From positions 186,001 to 250,000 of the forward strand of contig NZ_CAMKGL010000001.1 in NCBI RefSeq assembly GCF_946227985.1: DNA of 64,000 nucleotides. The letters are read 5' to 3'. Of the stretch, positions 42,967-45,439 are shown piece by piece; positions within the stretch are counted from its first letter, which is position 1, and every line of letters begins with the position of its first letter. The notes under the pieces are model-generated. The model ran no database searches. It saw only the letters and a program-made list of their open reading frames with translations, and was not told the DNA's origin. A program made the position numbers and the translations under genes. This stretch comes from Serratia quinivorans. Its GTDB lineage: Bacteria; Pseudomonadota; Gammaproteobacteria; Enterobacterales; Enterobacteriaceae.

Positions 42967-44184
42967 TCAGCGCTCGTGTTCCGCAGCGCTTTCCATCGGT
43001 GTGCAGGGTTCTGTCGCCGGATTTTTCGTCAGGACAATTAGCAACAGCACCATTGAATTCAGGGCAATCACGATCTCCCAGGCCACCCAGAAATCCAGTT
43101 GGTCGGCTATCAGGCTCAATCCCAGACTTAACACCGTGGACAGGCAAATGAACAACACTTCGTTGAAGGCGAGGATGCGTGCCAGTTCTTTGCTTTCTGC
43201 CTGGGTCATGATCAGTGTGTTTCTTCTCACCCGAATATGAGAATGACAGAAGGCGATCACAAAAAGACAGATATAAACGGCGGGGAGACTTTTGAAAAGC
43301 AAGGGTAAAAGCAGTCCGATAATAAAGCCGCTGCCAAAAATAATATACACGGATTTTAAGGTTGGCACCCAAGATTGCGTATTTAGCATACTGCCTATAA
43401 TGGCACCCAGCCCATAGGGTACGACGAGAATAGCATATGCGCTGACGGGGGCCCCTATACGAGTAAATAGTGCCGGATATAATGCGTTCAAGAACACGAC
43501 GCAAATGTAGGGGAATAATGAGAGCAGTTCAATAATTCGTTTTTTGTCACCGAGGAAAAAGACATAACCATTATGGTACATCGTCAGTTTTTTAGGCTTT
43601 GGTGTTGTTGACTCATCCACCTCATTGATAATGTCACGGGGGATATAGCGGTTGATAACTAATGAAAGAGAGAAACAGAACAGGGTAATCAAACAAACGT
43701 TTTGAATGGATTTATCCTGCAAGATCAAAAATGCAATTCCGCCGGAAAGAAAAGTTATCCCTTGCCTAACCATTTCCAACAGCCTGTTGGCGTGATACAG
43801 CTTATGTTCAGGCAAGACCTTTTTCATGTAGGTGGAACGGATCACTTGGTCAGATGCACGTATCAGCGTAAACACCGCTGTGGATAACAAAATGACGATA
43901 AATGAAAGTAATGAGTCGCGCGTGACTGGATTTATTATCAAAAAAACCAGCGCATTGAAGGCCCCCGCGACGTAAATAATATTGAGCATTTTTTTACATG
44001 TTGTTTTGTCTGTCAGGTGACCGATGTAGGGCAGGGCAAAAAAGGTGATGATATACCCTGACGACAGAACGACAGAAACCAGCAAGCTGGAATTGAACGT
44101 GCTCTCTATAAACCAGGCAATGGCAGTGAAGAATACTGCCATCGAAACGCCGGATGTGAATGCGGAGAGCAGAATGGGAAACAT
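42967..44184 (-). CDS. MFS transporter, probable exporter of the peptide operon
   Basis: This 405-residue membrane protein has about twelve helices of the major facilitator type (hydrophobic from residue 2 on; the loop GHLTDKTTCKKML near residue 55 resembles the MFS loop 2-3 motif). It is the third gene of a minus-strand operon: its ATG lies three bases after the stop of the RRE/heme-oxygenase-like gene, with no strong ribosome-binding site of its own, so it is probably translated by coupling. From this position I infer that it exports the product of the operon or gives self-protection. The region is clearly richer in A and T than the men genes, which suggests acquisition by transfer. Confidence 0.8.
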   Translation of the reverse strand: MFPILLSAFTSGVSMAVFFTAIAWFIESTFNSSLLVSVVLSSGYIITFFALPYIGHLTDKTTCKKMLNIIYVAGAFNALVFLIINPVTRDSLLSFIVILLSTAVFTLIRASDQVIRSTYMKKVLPEHKLYHANRLLEMVRQGITFLSGGIAFLILQDKSIQNVCLITLFCFSLSLVINRYIPRDIINEVDESTTPKPKKLTMYHNGYVFFLGDKKRIIELLSLFPYICVVFLNALYPALFTRIGAPVSAYAILVVPYGLGAIIGSMLNTQSWVPTLKSVYIIFGSGFIIGLLLPLLFKSLPAVYICLFVIAFCHSHIRVRRNTLIMTQAESKELARILAFNEVLFICLSTVLSLGLSLIADQLDFWVAWEIVIALNSMVLLLIVLTKNPATEPCTPMESAAEHER

Positions 44185-44187
44185 ATC

Positions 44188-45174
44188 TTATATACCAAAG
44201 TAGTCGACTCGTTGACGAGGGATGTAGTTGCCTTCTTTTGAATAATACTCTTCAATTTCAAGACACTGAAGATCAATGGCATGTTTTATGTCATGTATGG
44301 CATTCAAAATGAAAGAGGTTTTTTCCAGGTCCCCGAGGCTAACCAGATGGCTATGTTCGTCGAGCAGGCGTGAATGGCCCAATTCGTAGTCTATTTGTGA
44401 ATGTTGGAAGAATGGCTCAAGGGTACCTGGTTCAAGGTCATAGTGCTGTGTGATGTCCTCAATGGCTTTTGTGACTTCTGCCTGGTCAAAGTCATGAGAC
44501 TCGATGACCTTGGCAATAAGGAATACGGTACTGGGGTGGGTTCTGAACAACGTGCTTATCATGCTGATTAAATTAAGCGTTGAGACCAAAGGAACCGAGC
44601 TTTCCACTTCGGCCTGTTTCATTCCCAGTTTCAGTAATGTCGATAATATAAAAGATTCATGCCCTGTTTCTTGCTGTTTGTATTCTGTTAAAACCATTTT
44701 TAGCTCGGGATTGTCTGTGTTATCAATCGCAGCGTTAATGATGGATGGGAATGCCTTTATATAATGGTAAGTTTCCATGAAAAAGCCGATAAGAACGTTT
44801 CGGTTGGTGTCGCCATACAGAAATTTATTAAATAAATGAGTTTCTTCGACCTGCTCCGCCCACATCTCACAGGCTTGGATAGCTTTGCCAAGAAAATCTT
44901 CATTGGCCGGTTTTGTCTCGTTCCTAACCATGCCTATTTCGTTAAGAGAAGCGACCATCTCTTCGATACGCTGAATAGGGATATCTGTTTTACTTGAAAT
45001 TTCAGCCACGGTGTTATGACCGGTGCAATAGCTACGTATTTTATAAAAATCCCGGGCATCTTCCTTTTCCACTTCGTAAAGCCCTGCGGTAAAACGCAGA
45101 TAATATTCGTCATCTTCATTAGTGGTCCACAGGTTGTGAACGAATTTTGGAGAAGTCTGGTAGTTTTTATCCAT
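44188..45174 (-). CDS. PqqD-like/RRE domain fused to a heme-oxygenase-like diiron domain, candidate peptide-modifying oxygenase
   Basis: This 328-residue protein is not one I can name. Residues about 8-85 look like the winged-helix fold of PqqD and RiPP recognition elements: strands around YYLRFTAGLYEVEKED, then helices in RDFYKIRSYCTGHNTVAEIS and RIEEMVASLNEIGMV. Residues about 95-315 are all-helical with metal-ligand-like pairs E134-x2-H137, E169-x2-H172 (QQETGHESF) and H258/D262/E264/H267 (DYELGHSRLL), the pattern of heme-oxygenase-like diiron oxidases and PqqC/TenA relatives. I infer that it binds the 20-residue peptide encoded just upstream and oxidises it. AAGGAAA lies seven bases before the ATG. 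The gene is AT-rich relative to its surroundings. Confidence 0.65.
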   Translation of the reverse strand: MDKNYQTSPKFVHNLWTTNEDDEYYLRFTAGLYEVEKEDARDFYKIRSYCTGHNTVAEISSKTDIPIQRIEEMVASLNEIGMVRNETKPANEDFLGKAIQACEMWAEQVEETHLFNKFLYGDTNRNVLIGFFMETYHYIKAFPSIINAAIDNTDNPELKMVLTEYKQQETGHESFILSTLLKLGMKQAEVESSVPLVSTLNLISMISTLFRTHPSTVFLIAKVIESHDFDQAEVTKAIEDITQHYDLEPGTLEPFFQHSQIDYELGHSRLLDEHSHLVSLGDLEKTSFILNAIHDIKHAIDLQCLEIEEYYSKEGNYIPRQRVDYFGI

Positions 45175-45197
45175 GGCATTTTCCTTTTATTCTGAAG

Positions 45198-45226
45198 GCA
45201 GGGCCGGTGCTTATGACTGGCCCTGC
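45198..45226 (-). terminator. Attenuator-like hairpin between the peptide gene and the oxygenase gene
   Basis: A perfect eight-base stem GCAGGGCC / GGCCCTGC with a 13-base loop lies 17 bases after the peptide stop. No T-run follows on the minus strand, so it more likely stabilises the short peptide mRNA or ends only part of the transcripts, a common way to make much more precursor than enzyme. Confidence 0.6.
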
Positions 45227-45242
45227 TTATTATGATCACCGG

Positions 45243-45305
45243 TTAGCCGCAGGTTGCGCCGCCCAGCTTCTTCGTGGATTTTTTGCTGATTTTTTTCAGT
45301 TTCAT
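45243..45305 (-). CDS. 20-residue putative RiPP precursor peptide
   Basis: This minus-strand ORF, too short for usual gene calling, encodes MKLKKISKKSTKKLGGATCG. It has eight lysines in a leader-like first part, then a double glycine and a Cys-Gly C-terminus. The ribosome-binding site is very good (AAAAGGAT, with eight bases between AGGA and the ATG). It lies 68 bases before the RRE/heme-oxygenase-like gene, on the same strand, with a strong hairpin between. These points support a real peptide gene. If cleavage follows the GG, the core would be only ATCG; the single Cys is the obvious modification site. Both are inference. Confidence 0.7.
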   Translation of the reverse strand: MKLKKISKKSTKKLGGATCG

Positions 45306-45332
45306 CACATTGATCCTTTTGTAGGGTTGGTC

Positions 45333-45439
45333 TGCCTGACATCAGGCACCAGCATATTTCTCAGATGTCAGTCGGAAGGGCAAAGGGAATGTGTTTTTTT
45401 GTACGAATCATTAGATGTCTATCACAATTCAACTAGCAA
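45333..45439 (-). promoter_or_regulatory. Promoter and leader palindrome of the peptide operon
   Basis: On the minus strand TTGCTA (45434-45439) and TCTAAT (45410-45415) are 18 bases apart and could be -35 and -10, giving a leader of about 98 bases. In the leader there is a perfect palindrome TGCCTGA-TG-TCAGGCA at 45333-45348, a possible operator or RNA hairpin. Upstream, from 45440 to 45702, I see nothing else I can support. Confidence 0.45.

Follow-up and report, generated by a model that had tools for sequence, protein, structure and literature searches.

What could a 20-residue peptide, an enzyme with a putative peptide-binding domain and an exporter be doing together when their genes stand in tight order? 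The question is raised by a cassette at positions 42967-45439 of the Serratia quinivorans contig stretch analysed here (NZ_CAMKGL010000001.1; 64,000 nt, hereafter the window). On the minus strand, a 20-aa peptide open reading frame (ORF; 45243..45305) was followed by a 328-aa enzyme ORF (44188..45174) and a 405-aa major facilitator superfamily (MFS) exporter ORF (42967..44184), whose ATG lay 3 nt after the enzyme stop codon. The initial annotation had listed these three minus-strand genes, with the transporter three bases behind the enzyme, and had read them as a pathway for a ribosomally synthesized and post-translationally modified peptide (RiPP), with a precursor, a fusion of a RiPP recognition element (RRE) to a heme-oxygenase-like part, and an exporter. 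The ORF coordinates confirmed the arrangement, and the overall reading was supported, with most of it holding. The cassette probably, though not certainly, encodes a minimal RiPP-type pathway in which the RRE-bound peptide is oxidized at its C-terminus and the product is exported.

The peptide, MKLKKISKKSTKKLGGATCG, contains seven lysines (net charge +7), a single cysteine and a C-terminal glycine, and its ATG is preceded by the Shine-Dalgarno (SD) sequence AAGGA. Peptide ORFs were found upstream of the enzyme relatives in S. proteamaculans, S. inhibens, Pantoea ananatis and Xenorhabdus bovienii, with counterparts at loci L002, L003, L004, L005, L043 and L048 and a longer one at L030. The peptide genes of the window and Xenorhabdus differed at 16 nucleotides, with eight codons silently changed and three changed with their residue, and the last nine residues (KKLGGATCG) were identical. 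Because of these upstream counterparts, and because the codons changed silently while the tail did not, the 20-aa ORF is more than a chance reading frame. A degenerate DNA pattern for KLGGATCG followed by a stop codon had two matches in 394 genomes of the order, both at already known cassettes. The ORF for a tiny Lys-rich peptide ending in GGATCG, noticed at the outset together with its good ribosome-binding site, is confirmed. The N-terminal MKLKK part was conserved from Serratia to the more distant relative G660 (MKLKKVDAAKTSTRRVNGATCG), and the peptides varied in length and sequence outside the invariant tail (Pantoea, MKLKKVSKKSTKKLGGATCG; Xenorhabdus, MKMKKVSKKSNKKLGGATCG; G1124, MKLEKTNKKDQSAVVVVTCG, net charge only +2). 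The Rhizobium etli peptide was a 67-residue ORF ending in VVLMCG, with a net charge of −2.

The enzyme gene was patchily distributed. A scan of a collection of genomes from 84,980 species, sensitive to close relatives alone, gave full-length matches in P. ananatis (80% identity), X. bovienii (64%) and two Serratia; the S. proteamaculans CCUG 14510 enzyme was 99% identical to that of the window. All four relatives had the same three-gene order, with neighbours in Pantoea and Xenorhabdus unlike those in Serratia. Among 295 genomes of the family, 16 matched at E ≤ 0.001, three of them close (two Serratia, one Pantoea) and the rest distant fusions or unfused proteins resembling heme-oxygenase-like dimetal oxidases (HDOs). 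Profile searches yielded matches in 10 of 398 genomes of the phylum (E ≤ 1e-8), with G660 as one new full-length member (44% identity), and in 3 of 229 genomes of the class (E ≤ 1e-12), with G1124 as another. The cassette occurred at G1124 and G660 with other neighbours, and G660 had one extra gene inserted. A plasmid search added the R. etli p42f enzyme (29% identity over 84%). The alignment with the Alkalibacterium locus L006 comprised 17 residues, and it was dropped as a relative. No match was obtained in the phage search, in the E. coli genomes searched for the cassette DNA, in the plasmid search with the G257 enzyme or in the 78 genomes of the class of G491; a pattern search of viral contigs hit 129 stretches, with no relative among them. 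A survey for the sister clade described below returned none of 350 genomes of the class at E ≤ 1e-20, a result that carries no weight without a positive genome.

Short ORFs upstream of the enzyme genes were then sought with no condition on their tail: an ATG ORF of 12–80 residues, preceded by a simple SD word, within 420 nt upstream. Similar earlier scans without a tail condition had already revealed these ORFs. The 13 loci scanned were the window, L005, L002, L003, G660, G1124, R. etli, G103, G106, G141, Robbsia, Rhodococcus and G257; the G660 position was set by homology within a longer open frame. L004, whose peptide is identical to that of the window, was placed in the tree and stood outside the 13, L001, L007 and L008 were duplicate copies, and L056 (92% match, G1223) was left out. 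An SD-preceded short ORF lay upstream of the fused enzyme at 13 of 13 loci, one per locus apart from one nested start. The conserved upstream peptide that the initial annotation had set as a test was therefore present among the fused homologues scanned. In the control scan, 1 of 13 unfused HDO loci had such an ORF, ending in GR. The controls comprised 14 unfused HDO loci (L040 gave no ORF; L037 and L039 were excluded), which were mostly alike and so represent few independent cases.

The tails of these peptides sorted with the enzymes. In the window's clade, Cys-Gly (CG) closed the peptide at all seven scanned loci, of which two were from Serratia. At all five scanned loci of the sister clade, where two or three fused enzymes stand in tandem (relatives of Serratia, Robbsia, Tistrella, Rhodococcus), it ended in His-Leu (HL), as in Robbsia (MSQATTKQPVIVVKPRNPRPVLIPVHL) and Rhodococcus (MTITKKKRTIVAVAVHL), and the HL peptides had no cysteine. 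Tistrella raised the HL count to six of six after a targeted scan. With GTG and TTG starts accepted as well, the 420 nt directly upstream of its fused pair yielded no short ORF. A search of the whole 12.6-kb locus for HL-ending ORFs then located one of 55 residues, SD-preceded and ending in KPVLIAVHL, on the same strand some 1.9 kb farther upstream. In this plasmid (Tistrella mobilis pTM3, L032 2541-6663), two tandem HL-type enzymes were fused into a 691-aa protein, and a stretch with another, unassigned gene stood between peptide and fusion. The remaining locus, G257 (L029 6490-10721), had the tail EQ. It is a single case of a third sub-type, with the peptide MEIIILETKLPEQDKPRPAAEQ, three tandem genes, two of which were used as fused HDOs, and an MFS gene.

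In a tree of 20 enzymes, branch support was 99/98 for the CG group and 100/100 and 100/99 for the two HL groups (HLa and HLb, respectively); the G257 rows had long branches and their placement is unsure. The third HDO of G103 (487 aa), the second of G257 (276 aa), the third Robbsia gene, the Enterobacter chuandaensis plasmid HDOs and the Tistrella fused pair were kept out of this tree and of the ligand table. That the last two peptide residues follow the enzyme clade fits a site of action there. Since the HL peptides lack cysteine, cysteine chemistry is not the rule for the whole family, whereas a reaction at one of the final two residues could hold for all of it.

The enzyme N-terminus had been described at the outset as PqqD-like, with the RRE fold put forward for testing. 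An AlphaFold2 model of residues 1–92 (44899..45174, minus strand; pLDDT 77.5) had three strands followed by three helices. Foldseek gave eight matches with E < 0.1, and all eight were RRE-bearing RiPP proteins: TruD, four heterocyclase chains of 4v1t/4v1u/4v1v, the PbtF RRE, PqqD and McbBCD. In the VIA comparison the PbtF RRE came first (Z 8.9), followed by MccB (8.1–8.5), and PqqD scored 6.5; eukaryotic winged helices appeared in the list from about Z 7 downward. RREs ranked first in both lists, which makes the prediction that residues 1–92 form an RRE persuasive.

For the second part of the enzyme, the proposed heme-oxygenase-like fold was matched by profile, and the structural side did not follow, because the model of the full protein was poor. 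Residues 131–269 matched Pfam Haem_oxygenas_2 (34.3 bits; cut-off 28.9), and positions 100–283 matched the heme-oxygenase-fold protein 3dde (E 1.8e-11) and, more weakly, 7twa (BesC; E 0.0027). The G1124 enzyme also scored above the Haem_oxygenas_2 cut-off. With a pLDDT of 47 for the full-length model, the HDO assignment draws on sequence comparison. The ExxH-rich helical C-terminus noted initially was borne out, as the motifs E134xxH137 and E169xxH172 were conserved in the window's clade. The candidates for the three-His three-carboxylate ligand set of HDOs (E134, H137, E225, H258, D262 and H267), together with E169 and H172, were invariant in the eight CG-clade rows. Across the 20 fusions, E169, H172, E225, H258 and H267 were invariant, and position 134 was Glu and position 137 His in 19 of 20 each. 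At position 262, the ten HL enzymes all had Asn, and the CG and EQ enzymes had Asp. A His at position 298 was confined to the CG rows (8 of 8, against 0 of the 12 other fusions), and the conserved C-terminal tail NYIPRQRVDYFGI, of the form NY(I/F/M)PRxxVD(Y/F)F, was peculiar to the CG-clade enzymes.

The gap between peptide and enzyme genes held a stem-loop at 12 of the 13 loci, with unrelated sequences and gap lengths of 50–170 nt in those 12; in the window it lay at 45198..45226 on the minus strand (minimum free energy −18.3 kcal/mol). Fold energies of the gaps relative to shuffled sequences ranged from z −1.45 to −7.87 (window, −1.9). On the downstream side, a transporter gene on the same strand was present at 11 of the 13 loci (ten MFS, one EamA), with none in R. 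etli and G106 cut by the contig edge. The window exporter matched Pfam MFS_1 (41.2 bits) and TIGR00900 at 68.8 bits, far under that model's cut-off. The Xenorhabdus transporter had no Pfam match at 1e-5 and was assigned by its likeness to that of the window, and those of L002, L005 and G141 scored under the MFS_1 cut-off. The G1124 downstream exporter was homologous to the window exporter (26% identity, E 4e-26), and the MFS protein of G660 had no detectable homology to it. At G660 (L043, C38, 407-6741), the CG peptide and enzyme genes were followed by genes for a class V pyridoxal-phosphate (PLP) enzyme, the MFS protein, an EamA transporter, a radical SAM-SPASM protein and an arginase-family protein (Pfam); this locus is possibly a larger version of the pathway. 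The G103 locus contained genes for a class III aminotransferase and an ATP-grasp ligase. In the HL clusters of Robbsia p4 (L049) and Rhodococcus pDND3A (L050), the transporter gene was followed by a gene for a GNAT acetyltransferase, which is a candidate self-immunity gene by analogy to MccE.

From gene conservation, C-terminus identity, the predicted RRE fold, HDO homology, the recurrent stem-loop and the linked exporter, all computed here, we infer how substrate binding, metal content, the site and type of oxidation, export and biological role might fit together. With the stem-loop behind the peptide gene, the cell should make the peptide in large excess over the enzyme. The N-terminal stretch of the peptide, MKLKKxxKK in the window, would be held by the RRE domain; the peptide is Lys-rich with a net charge of +7, and the enzyme has one of −26. 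The HDO domain, with a dimetal site and O2, would then oxidize the Thr-Cys-Gly tail at Cys, as first suggested, at Gly or at both, all equally possible, and a free C-terminal carboxylate beside the cysteine would suit such an enzyme. In the Gly-ending clade, the last glycine might be lost oxidatively, leaving a C-terminal amide, or Cys-Gly might be turned into a sulfur heterocycle. The MFS protein would carry out of the cell either the modified peptide in full or a shorter piece that a host peptidase has trimmed from it. More tentatively, and with slightly more doubt than confidence on our side, these loci may represent an undescribed RiPP class in Gammaproteobacteria, Rhizobium, Tistrella, Robbsia and Rhodococcus. 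Its RRE-fused HDOs would act oxidatively on the last two residues of a tiny peptide, Cys-Gly or His-Leu and perhaps Glu-Gln, in a build like that of microcin C, with excess peptide through a hairpin, one recognizing enzyme and one exporter, and its product might be a Trojan-horse antibiotic or a metal-binding compound.

Several observations weigh against the proposed pathway. The best Foldseek E value for residues 1–92 was 0.007, with none at E ≤ 0.001; best VIA Z values of 7–8 are common in models without true kinship (best here 8.9), and the fold prediction covers the window protein alone. The full-length model was rejected on its pLDDT, and its fold search put RREs on top and gave no usable HDO match. 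The G660 enzyme fell under the Haem_oxygenas_2 cut-off (26.6 of 28.9 bits), and the R. etli enzyme did not match this family at E ≤ 5. In the alpha-3 motif H258-x3-D262-x4-H267, the third His comes two residues later than in 3dde (HX3DX4H vs HX3DX2H), a longer spacing that may mark a distinct or unusual metal site. The first 92 residues of the G660, G1124 and R. etli enzymes were not acidic, and the argument from charge match between a Lys-rich peptide and an acidic enzyme fails clade-wide, being weaker in G1124 and failing in R. etli. The R. etli pair also stood without an exporter, and its gap was the only one of the 13 without a stem-loop. Among the 12 stem-loop loci, only eight reached z ≤ −2. 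Finally, no leader peptidase or immunity gene was noticed beside the window cassette.

What leaves the cell could also be something other than the peptide. If the peptide were only a carrier, as in the pathways to pyrroloquinoline quinone (PQQ) and thiaglutamate, which offer precedents for a carrier peptide with a small-molecule product, host peptidases would cut off the oxidized C-terminal residue or residues and the exporter would release these as a small molecule. MFS exporters usually carry small molecules, the tail is invariant while the remaining peptide varies in length and sequence, and the larger relatives add small-molecule enzymes (the class V PLP enzyme, radical SAM-SPASM and arginase-family proteins of G660; the class III aminotransferase and ATP-grasp ligase of G103). 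Against this, the N-terminal MKLKK is conserved from Serratia to G660 as well, and no peptidase gene was noticed by eye in the three-gene cassettes. We regard this variant as a real possibility, albeit one with clearly less than an even chance; it overlaps with the proposed pathway and differs solely in what is exported.

Two further explanations would leave the peptide unmodified by the enzyme. A short ORF and a hairpin upstream of an enzyme gene form the classical layout of an attenuator, and with a stem-loop at 12 of 13 loci and lysine at 7 of 20 residues in the window, the peptide could be an amino-acid-sensing regulatory leader to an enzyme that acts on something else. Yet Lys-richness is not common to the family, as the R. 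etli and G257 peptides have a net charge of −2. The common feature is the last two residues, which were kept through silent codon changes and track the enzyme clade, even in the 67-aa ORF of R. etli and the 55-aa ORF of Tistrella, which does not adjoin the enzyme gene. Moreover, the enzyme has a predicted RRE, a peptide binder in known systems, and we find the leader explanation improbable. More improbable still is a DNA-binding winged helix at the N-terminus, which would make the protein a CADD-like enzyme of the para-aminobenzoate synthase type carrying a regulator of its own; the peptide would then be unrelated or an unmodified antimicrobial. Weak Pfam matches to TrmB and other helix-turn-helix models, all under cut-off, and the eukaryotic winged helices that reach Z 7 would fit this reading, but Foldseek and VIA rank RREs first, and peptide and enzyme stood together at all 13 fused loci scanned. 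The CADD model TIGR04305, which also points this way, gave 28.1 bits, far under its curated cut-off of 200.

The closest known build is that of microcin C. In PMC6495379, three genes for a precursor, an adenylating enzyme and a pump are said to suffice, and the otherwise variable precursors all end in Asn and have a strong SD sequence; a terminator hairpin between mccA and mccB of E. coli, with ribosome-induced termination, leads to an excess of MccA. The window cassette matches this order of peptide gene, hairpin, enzyme gene and exporter gene, with a minimal peptide behind a strong SD sequence, an invariant C-terminal end, a pump and an enzyme here proposed to modify the C-terminus. MccB also ranked high in the fold comparison with residues 1–92. 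However, the catalytic domain is HDO-like in the window and ThiF-like in MccB, the window peptide has 20 residues and ends in Cys-Gly, whereas that of microcin C has seven and ends in Asn, and no equivalents of mccD, mccE or mccF were noticed beside the window cassette. No ThiF match was found in the enzyme by Pfam or TIGRFAM-type profile comparison. Since it has neither a ThiF domain nor a C-terminal Asn, the cassette is not a member of the microcin C group, and the parallel is a likeness of plan.

PqqD and PqqC likewise bring together an RRE and a heme-oxygenase fold that acts on the product of a short ribosomal peptide, but in the PqqCD fusion the order of the parts is the reverse of that in the window enzyme, and the PqqA chemistry is on Glu and Tyr. 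Both parts are nevertheless joined in a natural fusion there, as in the window (title of 5sxy), and PQQ synthesis on the heme-oxygenase fold is described as metal-independent (PMC13108848). The thiovarsolin RiPP cluster includes an HDO, VarO, and, like the window cassette, an MFS transporter; deletion of VarO suggested a dehydrogenase role, and the cluster differs in its YcaO, TfuA, ATP-grasp and amidinotransferase genes and its repeating precursor (PMC6511847). The comparison with VarO is by cluster description. YcaO and TfuA genes were not noticed by eye around the window or L002–L005, where no family search for YcaO was made. The HDO of mangotoxin biosynthesis, MboA, introduces a desaturation into a side chain of a short peptide, and is thus like the proposed enzyme in oxidizing a side chain within a peptide substrate; in contrast, it was found via clusters with ATP-grasp ligases, which make short peptides non-ribosomally, and its alkyne step is gated by the redox partner MboB (PMC13185094). 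The MNIO (DUF692) systems MbnBC, TglHI and the thiooxazole formers are iron oxidases acting on RiPP precursors, on Cys in the case of MbnBC (PMC10214503, PMC13419390, PMC8888699), but belong to a protein family unlike that of the window enzyme. No MNIO genes were noticed by eye in the loci read, a reading with no search aimed at them.

HDOs in RiPP clusters (VarO) and HDO action within a short peptide (MboA) are already known. A literature search, mostly outside subscription papers, found no RRE-HDO fusion, stand-alone operon of peptide, RRE-HDO and exporter, or family-wide C-terminal dipeptide rule. The main text of the 2025 RRE catalogue (PMC12710340) does not mention TenA, redox enzyme, PqqC or PF14518, and its one use of oxygenase is in a reference. 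The main text of the 2020 RRE-Finder paper (PMC7470986) has none of the terms TenA, oxygenase, PqqC and redox enzyme, though such a fusion may still be listed in the supplements of either. If the proposal is true, it describes a RiPP class with a very small toolkit of one peptide, one enzyme and one exporter, and an oxidase that reaches the peptide C-terminus and would be of use in peptide engineering. The HDO superfamily has approximately a dozen functionally validated members according to a 2026 review (PMC13108848), and a linked peptide offers a ready-made substrate candidate for each orphan HDO. The microcin C parallel suggests that minimal-peptide operons arose with more than one catalytic domain.

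In the Serratia window, the cassette sits between katA and menE (Pfam: catalase and AMP-binding enzyme). Its GC content was 42–46%, compared with 55–61% in the flanking genes (exporter gene 45.2%, enzyme gene 41.8%; menE 61.4%, katA 55.4%), in agreement with the earlier remark that the region is AT-richer than katA and the men genes. A search for promoter or terminator consensus sequences near the peptide gene gave nothing above chance. The aligned ends of katA and menE were 56 and 57 nt apart in the cassette-free Serratia genomes G254 and G025 and 2,963 nt apart in the window. The enzyme gene was present in 3 of 30 genomes of Serratia's genus and in 1 of 60 sampled genomes of Pantoea's. The cassette looks like a gain in Serratia, with loss elsewhere as the alternative.

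Three plasmid loci are of separate interest. On a plasmid of Rhizobium sp. T1473 (L059 5001-5147), a remnant consisting of the last 49 residues of a CG-type enzyme lay near radical SAM and recombinase genes; a CG-ending ORF was not found and the locus was not counted. The R. etli p42f pair (L030 3344-16377) stood among DEAD/DEAH helicase, AIPR, PD-(D/E)XK and Z1-domain genes, a setting that resembles a defence island. The HDO cluster on the Enterobacter chuandaensis plasmid (L031 280-8572) was of another kind: two genes for iron-containing redox enzymes stood with genes for an M14 metallopeptidase, an MFS protein, a nucleotidyltransferase and a histidine phosphatase, beside an insertion sequence element.

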